A stretch of DNA of 45,996 bases from Streptosporangiaceae bacterium (GTDB lineage: Bacteria > Actinomycetota > Actinomycetes > Streptosporangiales > Streptosporangiaceae), in assembly GCA_030041135.1 (NCBI GenBank), contig JASHOL010000373.1, positions 1-45,996 on the forward strand. The letters run 5' to 3'. A program made the translations under genes and the position numbers. Positions 22,418 through 30,255 of this stretch are shown piece after piece. Each line of letters starts with the position of its first letter. Position 1 is the stretch's first letter. A model generated the notes under the pieces. The model had not been told where the DNA came from. It worked only from the letters and a program-made list of their open reading frames with translations, and did no database searches.

Positions 22418-25087
22418 CTAGCCGGCCGGCGCCGTCGCGGCCGCGTCGGAGGCCGACCCGGCAAGTCCGGCCTCGCCATCGTGAGCGATCGGCTCGCGTG
22501 GCTCGTCCTCATGGTCCGCGCTTTGTTCAGCTGGCTCGCCGCGGGCGTGCCTGAGGTCGGCGAAGCTCTCGACGCCTGGCGCGGTCATCGGCTTGGCTAC
22601 CAGGAATCCCTGTCCGAGGCCGCAGCCCATGGCTCGCAGCAGCTCAAGCTGTTCCGGCCGCTCGATGCCCTCGGCGACGACCTCGATGCCCAGGTCGTGC
22701 CCGACCTGCACGATCGTCCTGGTCAGCATCGCCAGCGTCCCGTCGGTACCGAGCCCGGCGACAAATGACGGATCGATCTTGATGATGTCGACCGGGAGCT
22801 GACGAAGATAAGCGAGCGAGGCGTAGCCCGTGCCGAAGTCGTCGATGGCCAGCCGCACGCCGAGCTGCCGGAGCCCGCCAAGCTCGTCGAGTATCGGCCC
22901 GGCCACCTCTATGAGCACGCGCTCGGTGACCTCGAGGGTCAGCGCGGATCGAGGCAGCCCGGAGTCGTCGATGGCAGTGAGCACCAACTCCGCGAACCGG
23001 GGCGCGCTCACCTGGCGGAGAGAGAAGTTCACCGACAACCCGATCTGCCAGCCTGTCTCCCGCCACTGCGCCGCCTGCTGGCAGGCCTCGCGTAGCACCC
23101 AGTCGCCGAGCGCGACAATCAGTCCCGACTCCTCGGCAATGCTGAGGAACTCAGCCGTCGGCACCTGCTCACCGCGGCGAGACCAGCGCACGAGGGCCTC
23201 TACGCCGGCCACCCGCGAGGTCGAGAGCTCCACCAGCGGCTGATACTCGATGGTCAGGCCGCCCTCCGCGATGGCCTGGCGCAGGTCGGTCGCGAGCTCC
23301 AGCCGCCTGATGACATCGGCATGCATGTGGGCCGCGAAGACCTCAACCTTGTCGCCGCCGGCCTCCTTAGCCCTGGCCATGGCCAGGTCGGCGTTGCGCA
23401 GGAGGTGCTCGCCGACGTCCGGGCCGGCGAAGGCGACGCCCAGGGCGGCCGTCATGGTGACGTCGTGGTCTGCGACCTCGAACGGGGCGGATGCGATGGC
23501 ACTGGCCAGCCGCTCGGCCATGTCAACGATCTCCTGCGGGCTAGCCGGGTGCTCGACCAGGATCGCGAACTCGTCATCAGCCCAGCGGGCGACGGTGTCG
23601 TGCGCCGGGACCAGGCCCCGCAGGCGCCGCCCCACCTGGGCCAGCAGCAGATCGCCGGCCCCGTGGCCGACCGAGTCGTTGATGGCGGTGAACCCATCGA
23701 GATCGACGAAGATCGCCCCGGGGCGCTCCAGCCGATTGGCGCTCGCGCCGACCGGCTGCCGGGCGAGGAGATCCTTCGCCCGCTCCTCCAGGTAGGCCCG
23801 GTTGGGCAGGCCGGTGAGCCCGTCGTGGAAGGTCAGGTGAGTCACCTGCTTGCGCAGCGCTATCTGGTCGCTGACGTCCCTGGCCGTGACGAGCATGGCG
23901 TTCTGCCCGCCGCCTGCATACCGTGAGACGGTAGCCCGCACGTCCCGCCAGGTACCGTCCGCGGCTCGCACCTGGCAGGCGAGGCTCGCGGCCGGAGCCG
24001 TTGCGCCTGACGTGGCCAGCGCCGCGGCCCGCATCGCGCCGACCCGGTCATCGGGGTGCACCAGATCGGTCAGCCGCCGTCCGGCGAGTTGCTGCGGTTC
24101 GTACCCATAGCGCGACACGGCCTGACTGGCGTAGGTGACCAGTCCGCCCGCGTCACACAGGAGCACGACGTCGCTGGTCCGCTCGGCCAGTTGCAGGAAC
24201 TTGCTGCCCGACAGCTCGGCCAGCTCCGTCGTGGCGGCTGCTCGCAGGACCAGGCCGCCGGCCCTGGTGGCCAGGGCCAGGATCAGGGCGCACCCGGCGA
24301 TCACCGGGACCTGACCGCCGTTTCCCCCGGTCACAAGCGCGAACATCAACATAACGACGGCGGCCACGCTCGCGACGGTCAGCCCGAGCGCGGTCCCAAG
24401 CACAGCCGGCCAGCCTGGACGCGAGTCATCGGCCTGCTCGCCCGCGGCCGCGGGCGTGCGGTCGGGCAGGCCGCTGGCTCCGAGCACGCAGATCGCGAGC
24501 AGCCAAGCCAGCTGCGGCCCGGTCCCAGCAGGCGCACCCGAAGCGCGGGCCTGGACGGCAAGCAGATCACCGAGCGTCGCCGCCCCGAGGGCGAGGTAGG
24601 GCGGCAGCGCGGCGCGCCCGCCCCGCAGCACCACGGCCAGCGTGCCGCCGAGAACGACCAGGTCGATTAGCGGGTGGATGAGATCGACGATGAACGACCC
24701 AGCCCCGATGTCCGCAGCGAGGTAAGCGGACCGCAGCACGGCGATCCAGAAGATGCCGAAAGTCCCGAGGCTGAGCAGGGAGCCGTCAACCAGTTGGCCG
24801 AAGCGGTCGGCCGCTCGGTCGGCCGGAGCCAGCCTGATCATGCCGATGACGAGCGGGATCAGCCCAAGCAACGCGAGGAGATCGGTGAGAGACAGCTGGA
24901 CTGCGGTGGGCGATGCCGACCCGACGGCAGCGACCTGGGCAATGAACGCCGCGCCCCATGCCGCAGCCGAGGCGGCGAGCCACCGGTAGGCGGGCCCGCC
25001 CGCACGCGCGTGCCGGAGCAGCAGCCCGGTCGCCGCCAGCGCGACTAGCGCGCCGACGACCGTCCATGCTGGGGACCCAGGGCTCAT
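22418..25087 (-). CDS. Membrane PAS-GGDEF-EAL composite protein (GGDEF motif degenerate: ADDEF)
   Basis: Multi-TM N-terminus, PAS (FLQLAERTSDVVLLCDAGGLVTYAS), GGDEF domain with RWADDEFAILVE, EAL domain with GVEALVRW and DDFGTGYASLAYLRQLPVDIIKID. Confidence 0.9.
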   Translation of the reverse strand: MSPGSPAWTVVGALVALAATGLLLRHARAGGPAYRWLAASAAAWGAAFIAQVAAVGSASPTAVQLSLTDLLALLGLIPLVIGMIRLAPADRAADRFGQLVDGSLLSLGTFGIFWIAVLRSAYLAADIGAGSFIVDLIHPLIDLVVLGGTLAVVLRGGRAALPPYLALGAATLGDLLAVQARASGAPAGTGPQLAWLLAICVLGASGLPDRTPAAAGEQADDSRPGWPAVLGTALGLTVASVAAVVMLMFALVTGGNGGQVPVIAGCALILALATRAGGLVLRAAATTELAELSGSKFLQLAERTSDVVLLCDAGGLVTYASQAVSRYGYEPQQLAGRRLTDLVHPDDRVGAMRAAALATSGATAPAASLACQVRAADGTWRDVRATVSRYAGGGQNAMLVTARDVSDQIALRKQVTHLTFHDGLTGLPNRAYLEERAKDLLARQPVGASANRLERPGAIFVDLDGFTAINDSVGHGAGDLLLAQVGRRLRGLVPAHDTVARWADDEFAILVEHPASPQEIVDMAERLASAIASAPFEVADHDVTMTAALGVAFAGPDVGEHLLRNADLAMARAKEAGGDKVEVFAAHMHADVIRRLELATDLRQAIAEGGLTIEYQPLVELSTSRVAGVEALVRWSRRGEQVPTAEFLSIAEESGLIVALGDWVLREACQQAAQWRETGWQIGLSVNFSLRQVSAPRFAELVLTAIDDSGLPRSALTLEVTERVLIEVAGPILDELGGLRQLGVRLAIDDFGTGYASLAYLRQLPVDIIKIDPSFVAGLGTDGTLAMLTRTIVQVGHDLGIEVVAEGIERPEQLELLRAMGCGLGQGFLVAKPMTAPGVESFADLRHARGEPAEQSADHEDEPREPIAHDGEAGLAGSASDAAATAPAG

Positions 25088-25215
25088 CGCAGACTGCCGA
25101 CGGCAAATTCGTCCGCTGGGGACGCGAAGTGCCCGGACACAGTGCCCGCCGGCACCGAACGTCCGATCACCTGACCTCCTTGGTGAACAGCCTCGTCGCG
25201 GCGCGGCCACCCCGC

Positions 25216-25582: not shown

Positions 25583-25928
25583 CTAGCAGTCGCCGGTGAT
25601 CACGTTGGCCAACGGCTGACCGGCCAGGTAGCGGTTCCGACGTGCTGGCATCGTGGACGCCGCGTGCATTGCACAGCACGGCTCCGGGGGGAACGAAGGG
25701 TCGGACCCGGTCGAAGCCGGCCGTCAGCGTTTGCACCACCTTCAGCCGCCCCATCTGCGCCATGGCAGTGACGGCCTCGAGCGCGGGAAAGAACGGCGGC
25801 ACGTAGAACTCGAGCTCCGGCGCGCTCTCCGGCAGGCTGCCGCCATCGGGCACGACGACCTCGACGGCCACGTCGTCTAGACCGTCCGTCGCGTCAGCTA
25901 CTTGCTGCACGGGGACCCAGATCAGCAT
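25583..25928 (-). pseudogene. D-2-hydroxyacid dehydrogenase remnant: N-terminus joined to C-terminal tail (internal deletion)
   Basis: N-terminal MLIWVPVQQVADATDGLDDVAVEVVVPDGGS...LKVVQTLTAGFDRVRPFVPPGAVLCNARGVHDASTSE runs directly, in a shifted frame, into RNRYLAGQPLANVITGDC* (25583-25639), which resembles the extreme C-terminus of the same family. Confidence 0.7.
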
Positions 25929-27612
25929 GCGCAGACCTCGCTCTACCGGTTCGGCCGCCCGCAGTCGCGAGCTTGCGTTCCGCCGCGCCCGGGTCCGTTG
26001 CCGTCGCAGGATACTGCCGGGTCTCGATGCGCGGAAAGAGCGGTCTGGGCCGGGGCAGGATGCCGGCCGAGTCGTCGCAGGCGGCGGCGATGCGCGCGGC
26101 CAGGTCGGGCAGGAACGGCCAGATTTCGGCGGCCAGGATCTGGCACGCCGACACGAGCGCGCCAAGCACCGCGTCCAGCCGGGTTCCGGCGGAGGCGTCG
26201 CCGGCCCGCTCGGCCCTGGCCAGGTGCCACGGCTCGGTCGCGTCCACGTAGCGGTTGGCCTGCTCGACGATCCGCCAGACCGCCGCGGCGGCGGCGCGGA
26301 AGTCGAAGTCTGCCAGCGCCGCCCGCACGCCCGCGGGTGCCCGCTCGATCGCGGTTCGCAGGCCGGCCGCGTCCTCGGGCCAGTCCGGCGCGCCGGCCGC
26401 GGAACCGGGCCCGCCCGGAACCGCGGCCAGCCACCTGGTCGTGCCGGCCGGCCACGGGCAGGGCCTGATGACCCCGGCCCGGCTTGAATGGACCAGCGCG
26501 ACGACCCGGCTGACCAGGTTGCCAAGGCCGTTGGCGAGATCCTCGTTCGCCCTGGCGATCAGCCGCTCAACGCTGAAGTCGGTGTCGCCCGTCCTCGGCA
26601 CCTCGCGCAGCAGCCACCAGCGCAGCGCGTCGACCCCGTACTCGCCGGCCAGCTCGACCGGGTCGGTCCGGCGACGGCTGGACTCGGGCGCCGACTTGCT
26701 GATCTTGTGGCCGTCCACGGTGAGATAGTCGTGCACGAAGATCTCGGTCGGCACCGGTTCCCCCGCCGAGAGCAAGATGGCGGGCCAGTAGACGGCATGG
26801 AACCGCAGGACGCCCTTGCCGACCAGGTGCACCCGCCGGTCGGCGCCCGTCCACCACCGCTCGTAATCCTCGCCGCGGGTGCCGTAGCCGAGCGCGGTGA
26901 CGTAGTTACCGAGCGCGTCCCACCAGACGTAGATCACCTGACCGGGGTCGCCGGGAACACCGATCCCCCAGCCCCGCGCGCGGGCCACGGAGCGCGAGAT
27001 GCTGAAGTCCTCGAGGCCGCCGGCGATGAACCCGAGCACCTCGTTGCGGCGTTCGGCCGGCTCGATCCTTAGCCGGCCGGAGCTGATCAAGTCGTGCAGC
27101 CTGCCGGAATATCTGGACAGCCGGAAGAACCAGTTCTCTTCGGCCACCAACTGCGGCGGCGTGCCGTGCTCCGGGCAGTTGCCGCTATCCAGCTCGGCCT
27201 CGGTATAGAACTGCTCGCACCGGACGCAATACAGCCCTTCGTACGACCTGCGGTACAGGTCACCGCTGGCCTCGCACGCGCGCCACAGCCGCTCCACGCC
27301 CGGCCGGTGCCGTGGGTCGGTGCTCGTTCGGATGAAGTCATCGAAGCTCAGCGACAGATCGCCGCGCAGCGCCGCGAACGCGCTGGCGTTGCGGTTCACC
27401 AGTTCCCTGGTGGTGATCCCCTCCGCCTCCGCCGCGAGGACGTTCGTGAGCGAGTTGTCGTCGGTGCCGCTTTGCAGCCGGACCTCGTCGCCGATCCGGC
27501 GATGATGGCGGGCTAGCACGTCGGCTTGCACGAGCTCGAGCGCATGCCCTAGATGCGCGCGCCCGTTAACGTAAGGGATGGTGGTGCTGAGGTAAAGCCT
27601 GGTTGCGGTCAT
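25894..27612 (-). CDS. Methionyl-tRNA synthetase-like protein (class I)
   Basis: STTIPYVNGRAHLGHALELVQADVLARHHRRIGDEVRLQSGTDDNS; Zn knuckle YCVRCEQFYTEAELDSGNCPEHG; KISKS (KMSKS-type) motif; 572 aa. Confidence 0.88.
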   Translation of the reverse strand: MTATRLYLSTTIPYVNGRAHLGHALELVQADVLARHHRRIGDEVRLQSGTDDNSLTNVLAAEAEGITTRELVNRNASAFAALRGDLSLSFDDFIRTSTDPRHRPGVERLWRACEASGDLYRRSYEGLYCVRCEQFYTEAELDSGNCPEHGTPPQLVAEENWFFRLSRYSGRLHDLISSGRLRIEPAERRNEVLGFIAGGLEDFSISRSVARARGWGIGVPGDPGQVIYVWWDALGNYVTALGYGTRGEDYERWWTGADRRVHLVGKGVLRFHAVYWPAILLSAGEPVPTEIFVHDYLTVDGHKISKSAPESSRRRTDPVELAGEYGVDALRWWLLREVPRTGDTDFSVERLIARANEDLANGLGNLVSRVVALVHSSRAGVIRPCPWPAGTTRWLAAVPGGPGSAAGAPDWPEDAAGLRTAIERAPAGVRAALADFDFRAAAAAVWRIVEQANRYVDATEPWHLARAERAGDASAGTRLDAVLGALVSACQILAAEIWPFLPDLAARIAAACDDSAGILPRPRPLFPRIETRQYPATATDPGAAERKLATAGGRTGRARSAHADLGPRAASS

Positions 27613-27660
27613 CGGAACCTCCTGGGGAAGAAGTCAGGGGCACCGACCCCGCACATGAAT

Positions 27661-27680
27661 CGAGGCCCCCGGGGGCCTCG
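27661..27680 (-). promoter_or_regulatory. Candidate attenuator terminator hairpin (segments 3:4) in the MetRS-like gene leader
   Basis: CGAGGCCCCCGGGGGCCTCG, a perfect 20-nt palindrome about 50 nt upstream of the MetRS-like start. Confidence 0.6.
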
Positions 27681-27716
27681 TGCGGACTACGTCCGAGCGT
27701 ACTGAGATGGCCCCGG

Positions 27717-27755
27717 CTAGCGGGGCATCATCACCGAATACGCGCAGATCTGCAT
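27717..27755 (-). CDS. Candidate leader peptide MQICAYSVMMPR (tandem Met codons) upstream of the MetRS-like gene
   Basis: ATG CAG ATC TGC GCG TAT TCG GTG ATG ATG CCC CGC TAG. The ATG is 7 nt downstream of a -10-like TATAGT (leaderless). Confidence 0.65.
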   Translation of the reverse strand: MQICAYSVMMPR

Positions 27756-27761
27756 GCGCTC

Positions 27762-27767
27762 ACTATA
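27762..27767 (-). promoter_or_regulatory. -10 element TATAGT of the leader promoter
   Basis: RC of actata; spacing puts the predicted transcription start on the A of the leader-peptide ATG. Confidence 0.55.
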
Positions 27768-27797: not shown

Positions 27798-28652
27798 CTA
27801 GCCGGTGGCCGGTGCCAGCGTGAAGTCCACGTCGACGACGTAGCGGACGTCCGGCGGATCATCGGGCGCCGCGGGACGGAACTCGCTGATCAGGGAGTCG
27901 CGGACGCCGAAGACCGCATCGCTGCCCAGGTGCTCGTTGGCCGAGTCGAATATGTGGGTCGTGACCGGCTCGTAGCCTTGGCCCGACAAGATCACGTGGA
28001 CGTGCGCCGCCCGGTAGTTGTGCCGTCCGGTCGCACGGTAGATGTTACCGACCGGACCATCGATCGGAACGGGGTAGCTCACCGGCCGCGAGGTCCGGAA
28101 GGCGAAGCCGCCGTCCGGGCCGGTCGTGAAGACCCCGCGCAGGTTGAAGTCCGGCTGCTGCGGATCCTGGATGTCGTAAAGCCCGTTGCCGCTGCCCTGC
28201 CAGACGTCGAGCGTGGCGCCATCGACCGGATTCCCTGCCGTGTCCGTGACCCGGCCGCGAATCAGCGCCACGGGGCCGTCCTCCGGACGCCCGATGTGCT
28301 CGCCCATCTCCCGGCGCGGCGCGCCCGGCCGGTAGAACGGCCCGAGCACCGTGGGCTCGGTGGCGCCAGCCACCGCATTGATGGTCTCGACCAGCGATGA
28401 GAGCCCGAGCGTGTCGGACAGCAAGATGAATTCCTGGCGCTCCGGGTCGCACTTCTGCCCCACCGCGGTCAGGAACTCCAGGCCCGCCATCCACTCCGCC
28501 GTGGTCAGGCCGGTCTCGGTCGCGAACGCGTGCAGGTGCGTGATCAGCGCGGCCAGCAACTCGCGCAGCCGCGGATCTGGCGTCGCGGCGTAGGCCTGCA
28601 AGACCTCGGCGGTCACTTTCTCTGCGGCGACACCGCGGGCATTCATGGTCAT
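27798..28652 (-). CDS. Intradiol ring-cleavage dioxygenase (hydroxyquinol/catechol 1,2-dioxygenase family)
   Basis: EPTVLGPFYRPGAP...GATLDVWQGSGNGLYDIQDPQQPDFNLRGVFTTGPDGGFAFRTSRPVSYPVPIDGPVG...HNYRAAHVHVILSGQGYEPVTTHIFD; the Tyr/Tyr/His/His ligand pattern is evident. Confidence 0.92.
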   Translation of the reverse strand: MTMNARGVAAEKVTAEVLQAYAATPDPRLRELLAALITHLHAFATETGLTTAEWMAGLEFLTAVGQKCDPERQEFILLSDTLGLSSLVETINAVAGATEPTVLGPFYRPGAPRREMGEHIGRPEDGPVALIRGRVTDTAGNPVDGATLDVWQGSGNGLYDIQDPQQPDFNLRGVFTTGPDGGFAFRTSRPVSYPVPIDGPVGNIYRATGRHNYRAAHVHVILSGQGYEPVTTHIFDSANEHLGSDAVFGVRDSLISEFRPAAPDDPPDVRYVVDVDFTLAPATG

Positions 28653-28758: not shown

Positions 28759-30255
28759 TTAGCTCAGCCGCTCCAGGATGAGTTGGCGCGCCCTGCTCGC
28801 GTCGGCCCGGCCCTTGGTCGCCTTCATCACCGCGCCGACGAGTGCCCCGACCGCGGCCGTCTTGCCGTCGCGGATCTTCGCCGCGATGTCCGGGTTGGCC
28901 GCGATGGCAGCGTCGACGGCCTCGGTCAGCGCGCCGTCGTCGCTCACCACGGCCAGGCCGCGGGCCGCGACGACCTCATCCGGCGAGCCCTCGCCGGCCA
29001 GGACGGCCTCCAGCACCTGCCTGGCCAGCTTGTCGTTCAGCGCCCCCGCCTTCACCAGCGCGCTGACCCTGGCCACGTTGGCCGGGGTCACCGGCAGCGA
29101 AGAGAGCTCCACACCGGACTTGTTGGCGTGCATGGCCAACTCGCCCAGCCACCATTTGCGCGCGTCGGCTGGCGAGGCGCCGGCGGCAATGGTCTGGGCG
29201 ACTAGGTCGATCGCGCCGGCGTTACGAAGCCAGGTCATCTCCTGGTCGGAGAAGCCCCACGCCTCCTGCAGCCTTGCCCGCCGGGCGGCGGGCAGTTCCG
29301 GCAACGAGGCACGCAACTGCTCCACCCACTCGGCAGGCGGCGCGACCGGCACCAGGTCGGGCTCGGGGAAATAGCGATAGTCCTGCGCCTCTTCCTTGCT
29401 GCGCCCCGATGTGGTCGTCCCGTTGTCTTCGTGGAAGTGCCGGGTCTCCTGCACGACGCGCCCGCCCGCATCGAGAATCGCTGCCTGCCGCTCGATCTCG
29501 AACCTGACTGCTCGCTCGACCGACCGGAGCGAGTTCACGTTCTTGGTCTCCGTCCGCTTCCCCCACTCCGCGGCGCCGATCGGCGCGAGTGAAGTGTTCA
29601 CGTCGGAGCGCAGTGAGCCTTCTTCCATCCGCACGTCGGACACGTCGAGGGCCTGCAACAGGCCGCGCAGCTCGGTCACGTAGGCCCGGGCGACCAACGG
29701 CGCCAGCGACCCGGTCCCGGTCACTGGCTTCGTCACGACCTCGACCAGGGGTATGCCCGCCCGGTTGTAGTCGACCAGCGAGTACTCGGCACCGTGGATC
29801 CGGCCGGTCGCGCCGCCGACATGCAGGGTCTTGCCGGTGTCCTCTTCCAGGTGCACCCGCTCGATGCCGACGCGGAATTCCTGCCCTTCCACCGTCACGT
29901 CCAGGTAGCCGTCGGTGCACAACGGCTCGTCATACTGGGAGATCTGAAAGTCCTTCGGCATGTCCGGGTAGAAGTAGTTCTTCCGCGCGAAGCGGCACCA
30001 CGTCGCGATCGAGCAGTTCAGCGCCAGCCCGATCTTGATCGTGTACTCGATCGCGGCCCGGTTGGTCACGGGCAGCGACCCTGGCAGCCCGAGGCACACC
30101 GGGCACACGCTGGTGTTAGGCGGCGCGCCGAACTCGATCAGGCAGCCGCAGAACATCTTCGTCATGGTGCCGAGTTCGACGTGCGTCTCGAGCCCGATGA
30201 CCGGCTCGTACCTGGACAGCGCCTCGTCGTAGGGCACCAGTTCGGCGACGCTCAT
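28759..30255 (-). CDS. gatB: Asp-tRNA(Asn)/Glu-tRNA(Gln) amidotransferase subunit B
   Basis: [23 protein letters not shown]...[31 protein letters not shown]...[19 protein letters not shown]. Confidence 0.98.

Follow-up and report, generated by a model that had tools for sequence, protein, structure and literature searches.

We analyzed a 45,996-nucleotide (nt) stretch of the genome of a Streptosporangiaceae bacterium (GCA_030041135.1, contig JASHOL010000373.1), referred to here as the window. On its minus strand lies a gene for an auxiliary methionyl-tRNA synthetase (MetRS), preceded by a short leader that carries a small open reading frame (ORF) with two consecutive methionine (Met) codons and a series of complementary segments, and that may act as a ribosome-mediated attenuator. 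The features of the locus are as follows.

27762..27767, minus strand: -10 box TATAGT of the leader promoter, read directly from the sequence.
27717..27755, minus strand: leader ORF of 12 codons encoding MQICAYSVMMPR and a stop, based on the sequence and on conservation in relatives.
27726..27731, minus strand: ATG ATG, tandem Met codons with a predicted regulatory role; the Met site is kept in frame across distinct leaders.
27721..27726, minus strand: segment 1, GCCCCG, which pairs with segment 2 and lies within the 12 nt assumed to be covered by a ribosome whose A site holds the first Met codon.
27706..27715, minus strand: segment 2, CGGGGCCATC, partner of segment 1 or 3, based on pairing and the swap test described below.
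27671..27680, minus strand: segment 3, CGAGGCCCCC, 5' arm of a terminator-like hairpin, based on pairing and covariation.
27661..27670, minus strand: segment 4, GGGGGCCTCG, 3' arm of that hairpin, based on pairing, covariation and a T-rich tail in relatives.
27637..27645, minus strand: segment 6, CGGTGCCCC, which can pair with segment 7 and is a possible alternative partner of segment 4, based on the swap test.
27613..27623, minus strand: segment 7, AGGAGGTTCCG, the Shine-Dalgarno region of the MetRS-like gene, based on the sequence and the swap test.
25894..27612, minus strand: auxiliary MetRS gene (572 amino acids), above the cut-off of TIGR00398 (metG) and matching PF09334.

Read along the minus strand, the order is TATAGT-GAGCGC-leader ORF-CCGGGGCCATC...CGAGGCCCCCGGGGGCCTCG...CGGTGCCCC...AGGAGGTTCCG-ATG of the MetRS-like gene. 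The 6-nt spacer GAGCGC separates the -10 box from the leader ATG at 27755, which begins at the 7th nt, and the codons run ATG CAG ATC TGC GCG TAT TCG GTG ATG ATG CCC CGC TAG, with the stop at 27719-27717. Because the leader ATG lies only 6 nt past the -10 box, an element reported as TAnnnT in Streptomyces (PMC8079986), the transcript is predicted to be leaderless, starting at or beside that ATG. Segment 1 (27726-27721) is complementary to CGGGGC (27715-27710) within segment 2, and segments 3 and 4 together form a perfect 20-nt palindrome (27661-27680). A preliminary description of this DNA had reported the TATAGT, the leader ORF, four segments and the palindrome; all were present, with a gap to the ATG of 6 nt. 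Its four-segment layout holds for the 1:2 and 3:4 hairpins and is incomplete, as it missed a third hairpin over the Shine-Dalgarno sequence (6:7; 27613-27645, minus strand), in which segment 6 (consensus CGGAGCCCC) can pair with GGAGGTTCCG, including the Shine-Dalgarno sequence of the MetRS gene.

The product of the gene scored 367.9 bits against TIGR00398, relative to a cut-off of 336.35. A second MetRS, of the archaeal/E. coli type, is encoded in the same genome (G000:C206), and at least two metG matches were found in 24 of the 24 genomes checked. Since another MetRS is present in every one of these genomes, the gene behind the leader is an auxiliary MetRS. The canonical gene of the window genome has no such attenuator leader; TAGGCT stands 6 nt before its ATG (L145:29-1822, minus strand), and its own mRNA looks leaderless. 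In the protein tree, the auxiliary subfamily formed a fully supported clade, to which the canonical single-knuckle enzymes of other actinobacteria do not belong. The best solved relatives of the window protein are single-knuckle MetRS (Brucella, Aquifex and Mycobacterium). The active-site motifs HLGH/HLGF and KISKS are present, with HLGF at the HIGH position in most members, and nearly throughout the subfamily GTDDNS/A (GTDDNS/A-L-K-N) replaces the canonical GTDEHG and VHD replaces VHG.

Orthologs were gathered by whole-genome searches with the MetRS-like protein in the same genus, the family and the wider class. A -10 box, a 6-7 nt gap and a short ORF with an internal Met were found in 19 of the 20 orthologs inspected from the family and the wider class. 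A scan of named actinobacterial genomes (including Streptomyces, Actinomadura, Saccharothrix, Streptosporangium, Planobispora, Kribbella, Nocardia brasiliensis, Micromonospora, Catenulispora, and Trebonia) yielded 80 loci of MetRS-like relatives, 76 of which carry the leader, i.e., 72 with the strict pattern and 4 with a weaker -10 box (L094, L103, L104, L106). The remaining 4 loci, from Saccharomonospora, Actinokineospora, Amycolatopsis and a Pseudonocardiaceae metagenome-assembled genome, have no leader, nor has L018 of the first ortholog set. The leader spans the full depth of the subfamily protein tree, and four of the five leaderless members belong to one Pseudonocardiaceae clade. Leader-bearing families include Streptomycetaceae, Streptosporangiaceae, Thermomonosporaceae and Micromonosporaceae, among others, and the leader was likewise found in Saccharothrix, Kribbella, Nocardia and Catenulispora. 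Conservation of the leader ORF and its Met codons in relatives, on which the preliminary description had beforehand let its proposal stand or fall, was thus borne out.

All 82 distinct leaders place a putative short ORF with Met codons before a MetRS gene, as expected of a leader-peptide attenuator. Tandem Met codons occur in 66 of these ORFs and a single Met in 16, and none lacks both; either codon can be the one lost (MVPR, MAPR, MSPR, MTPR, MIRP, TMPR, RMPR and so on). The distance from the start to the Met site takes eight values between 5 and 12 codons, in frame every time, and the remaining codons before the site vary freely among leaders; the spacer between TANNNT and the start is 6 nt in 43 and 7 nt in 39. 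The varying in-frame spacing and the loss of either codon argue that it is the codons, and not the RNA letters, that are conserved. The search pattern demanded an in-frame Met, a possible source of bias, although just 4 of the 80 loci did not match, and those show no leader at all. Met has one codon only, which makes a synonymous test impossible. The most divergent leaders, MQRARMAMMPSRMMMFSGLSRVP (L019:2629-2785, minus strand) and MLRHDAFAGRMEMSLSGQLGMS (L022:1339-1500, plus strand), each ending in a stop, have extra Met codons and unrelated hairpin sequences and were left unaligned with the others. At the latter locus, the subfamily MetRS is split across two frames (G038:C1:9632-11184), by a frameshift or an assembly error.

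The leader is also specific to its gene. A covariance model built from 16 leaders gave one standout match in the window genome (1e-36), with the next real competitor at 0.04, and in a sample of 396 genomes of the class every match at E <= 4.5e-10 precedes the auxiliary MetRS subfamily, as does one weaker genuine match (L133). Because the genuine matches all precede this subfamily, the leader belongs to the auxiliary MetRS gene and not to a regulon. The other weaker matches inspected (E above ~1e-9, e.g., L120-L128) were considered as leaders of other genes and rejected, as they look like coding sequence or unrelated hairpins and have no MetRS downstream. An Rfam search of the leader, with matches accepted up to E 5, returned no T-box and no SAM (S-adenosylmethionine) riboswitch family; as Rfam gave no match at all, identity with a known riboswitch or T-box was rejected.

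Hairpins 1:2 and 3:4 were detected in nearly all leaders, and complementarity between segments 2 and 3 is present throughout the set as a possible pairing. Covariation was assessed by a swap test, in which each segment was paired with its own partner or with partners from other leaders (34 leader clusters, 5000 permutations). None of the 5000 permutations was as good as the true pairing for 1:2 (z -6.2), 3:4 (z -9.0) or 6:7 (z -3.8). The segment limits of 1:2 and 3:4 were set by pairing, which favors a segment's own partner, whereas those of 6:7 were not so set; the permutations do not remove relatedness among leaders. The alignment from the covariance search was left out of this analysis, as it was contaminated by palindromic minus-strand matches. 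Compensated pairs could be read directly in individual leaders: for 3:4, CAGGCC/GGCCTG (L091, L103, L106), AAGC/GCTT (L133) and CGGGGCC/GGCCCCG (L098); for 1:2, ACCCGC/GCGGGT (L107); and for 6:7, GGGGCTCC/GGAGCCCC in Actinomadura madurae (L089), CGTCTCC/GGAGACG in Micromonosporaceae (L103) and GGTCC/GGACC in several Streptomyces. The stem covariation that the preliminary description asked for is therefore found, with compensatory changes, in 1:2 and 3:4, and is missing from 2:3, where pairing is possible.

The placement of the segments relative to the ORF was compared with a ribosome footprint assumed to reach ~15 nt upstream and 12 nt downstream. The end of segment 1 is at most 12 nt from the Met codon (with 1 nt of tolerance) in 84 of 85 leaders, and the stop codon falls just before or just after segment 2, such that the assumed footprint of a terminating ribosome overlaps segment 2 in 77 of 85. 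When the leader was masked as far as the Met codons and segment 4 was left out as still untranscribed, the median for 2:3 pairing was 0.68. Mutually exclusive 1:2, 2:3 and 3:4 complementarity with regulatory codons at segment 1, the arrangement of a leader-peptide attenuator, is accordingly present.

Hairpin 3:4 is strong (median -18.9 kcal/mol). The absence of a clear U-tract remarked on in the preliminary description holds for the window; across relatives, however, T is enriched in the 10 nt that follow segment 4 (35% T; the stretch between segments 2 and 3 has 19% and the sequence further downstream 14%). The T runs are short, reaching at least 4 T in 5 of 74 leaders, none of them in the window. 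Unlike most relatives, L040 (plus strand) has 8 T after the 3:4 hairpin and is a textbook intrinsic terminator. The covarying 6:7 hairpin sequesters the Shine-Dalgarno sequence, which is the structure expected of an erm-type translational attenuator; because it covers that site, translational control is likely, as a second layer or as the main one.

From these comparisons we propose, at a probability of roughly 0.87, that the auxiliary MetRS is under ribosome-mediated attenuation, in which the leader senses how far elongator tRNA-Met is charged. Transcription would begin at the leader ATG or right beside it, and a ribosome would translate the leaderless ORF behind RNA polymerase. When Met-tRNA is ample, the ribosome would pass the Met codons, and either 1:2 would form behind it or the ribosome at the stop would cover segment 2; 3:4 would then form and halt transcription, and/or 6:7 would hide the Shine-Dalgarno sequence. 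When Met-tRNA is scarce, a ribosome stalled on the Met codons would cover segment 1, and segment 2 would capture segment 3 before segment 4 is made; 3:4 would be lost and the MetRS gene expressed, and segment 4 may hold segment 6, leaving the Shine-Dalgarno sequence open. Ribosome stalling and the switching by 2:3 and 4:6 are what we infer here, as is the level of control; the attenuator would act on transcription, on translation initiation or on both. As to kind and signal, the Met-tRNA-sensing attenuator of the preliminary description is supported.

Several observations weigh against this proposal or limit it. The 2:3 pairing does not covary (2686 of 5000 permutations as good; own partner -14.4 versus swapped -14.4 kcal/mol, 34 clusters), and 4:6 is marginal (245 of 5000). 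The folding energy of the leader is unexceptional (z -1.75), and the weight rests on conservation. Several leaders from Actinomadura and Streptomyces, in which other pairings win, have a low free-fold probability of 3:4 or 1:2. In the window, 3:4 is followed by ATTCATGTGC and not by a clear U-tract. Equilibrium folding re-forms 3:4 even with segment 1 masked, and therefore the switch must be kinetic. With 2:3 locked, the Shine-Dalgarno sequence is hardly freed at equilibrium (mean unpaired 0.25 -> 0.30); a simple equilibrium model for its release was rejected on this ground, and the proposed relay from 2:3 through 4:6 to an open Shine-Dalgarno sequence would rest on kinetics.

The alternatives differ greatly in how well they account for these data. 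Hairpins are common at high GC content, and together with the modest folding z-score this might suggest a random short ORF beside GC-rich hairpins. We searched both strands of the 46-kb window for TANNNT, 6-7 nt and an ATG/GTG-initiated ORF of 5-25 codons, and the leader ORF was the sole match; 40 dinucleotide-shuffled versions of the window contained no such ORF with an internal Met-Met, and shuffling the local 80 nt produced stems equalling 1:2 and 3:4 together in 0.6% of cases. With the arrangement also kept in 76 of 80 relatives, a chance origin is refuted by conservation in orthologs and named relatives and can be given virtually no credence: the arrangement is confirmed as real, far beyond chance. 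It is also improbable that the leader is an RNA element bound by a protein or a small molecule, with AUGAUG as part of the RNA motif and the ORF incidental. The high sequence conservation of the core AUGAUGCCCCG...CGGGGCC would suit such an element, but the Met codons stay in frame, at eight spacings, with a start 6-7 nt from the -10 box, single-Met variants drop either codon and never both, and no known Rfam family was found.

What divides the remaining alternatives is the part played by 3:4 and 6:7. If 3:4 were no terminator, a stall at the Met codons would rearrange the hairpins and free the Shine-Dalgarno sequence from 6:7, i.e., erm-like translational attenuation only. The strong 6:7 covariation over that site, the missing U-tract of many 3:4 hairpins and the description of mycobacterial cysteine leaders as translation attenuation (as cited in PMC13236596) point this way; yet 3:4 is the most conserved hairpin and covaries strongly, T-rich sequence follows it in relatives, with the 8 T of L040, whereas 4:6, required for opening 6:7, has marginal support and equilibrium folding leaves the Shine-Dalgarno sequence closed with 2:3 locked. 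This alternative is possible, though we would not expect it to be the full account. We are equally doubtful of classical transcription attenuation only, with 6:7 merely setting a low basal level of translation: the 1:2/2:3/3:4 layout is that of trp and of the Streptomyces trpS and leuS leaders (PMC1262725), and the tails past segment 4 are T-rich, but the U-tracts are weak and the 6:7 covariation is left unexplained. Going beyond the attenuator itself, we tentatively suggest a widespread actinobacterial relay, in which one ribosome stalled on Met codons would control both termination (3:4) and Shine-Dalgarno access (6:7 via 4:6) for a spare MetRS whose active site has been remodelled. This enzyme would be induced to stand in for the main MetRS if the latter were blocked, e.g., by a putative natural MetRS inhibitor.

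As for why the auxiliary enzyme is retained, Lys56 of SaMetRS is placed at the ATP site (PMC9071491), and in our own alignment it adjoins the changed GTDDNS/A loop. Because this loop lies at the substrate/inhibitor pocket region, altered inhibitor sensitivity is a plausible reason. The neighborhood of the MetRS gene gave no shared clue to function, as neighbors vary among genomes. In the window, gatB (28759-30255) is separated from the MetRS leader by an intradiol (catechol 1,2-) dioxygenase-like gene (27798-28652, minus strand), and a large PAS-GGDEF-EAL protein, likely involved in cyclic-di-GMP turnover, is encoded at 22418-25210 (minus strand).

Leaders of related design are known. The auxiliary, antibiotic-resistant tryptophanyl-tRNA synthetase (TrpRS) of Streptomyces coelicolor is under ribosome-mediated attenuation (Vecchione and Sello 2010, as cited in PMC4787780); judging from that citation, it too is a spare actinobacterial aminoacyl-tRNA synthetase behind a leader peptide whose codons call for the enzyme's own amino acid, with Trp in place of Met and with antibiotic resistance as a TrpRS feature. 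A 2005 survey by Seliverstov described Streptomyces attenuators for trpS and leuS and saw no conserved structure upstream of methionine operons (PMC1262725), and the annotation of S. lividans includes leaderless leader peptides for trpS, leuS and thrS plus an alaS leader (trpL2, leuL2, thrL, and alaL; PMC8079986). Like the MetRS leader, these are short ORFs that carry regulatory codons ahead of synthetase genes; most are reported to be leaderless, and several are without U-tracts. They include no Met case before a synthetase. The nearest Met precedent is S. lividans metL, a putative leader before metNIQ (PMC8079986), which is likewise a leaderless ORF with Met codons and a proposed attenuator. 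Unlike the MetRS leader, metL has 29 codons with non-tandem Met, precedes a Met importer, is reported from one genome and shows no sequence relation by eye. Leaderless poly-cysteine short ORFs in mycobacteria (Canestrari 2020, as cited in PMC13236596) also read amino-acid supply through their codons, but, as described there, they respond to cysteine and control biosynthetic operons. T-box leaders similarly report uncharged tRNA to synthetase genes, but by direct tRNA binding and with no leader peptide. A full-text literature search found no Met leader or attenuator with MetRS, which is weak evidence as many subscription papers lay outside the search. The preliminary description gave no precedent for a Met-codon leader attenuator before an actinobacterial MetRS gene; Met leaders in general are, as the putative metL shows, not wholly unprecedented.

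If the proposal is true, this would be, to the extent that Rfam and the searched literature can tell, the first conserved attenuator in which elongator Met-tRNA is the signal and a MetRS gene the target. The leader dates to the base of the auxiliary MetRS clade, and it provides independent evidence tying this divergent clade to methionine despite the altered active-site motifs. The leader could serve directly as a sensor of Met-tRNA charging and raises the question of whether there is a natural MetRS inhibitor that the spare enzymes answer.
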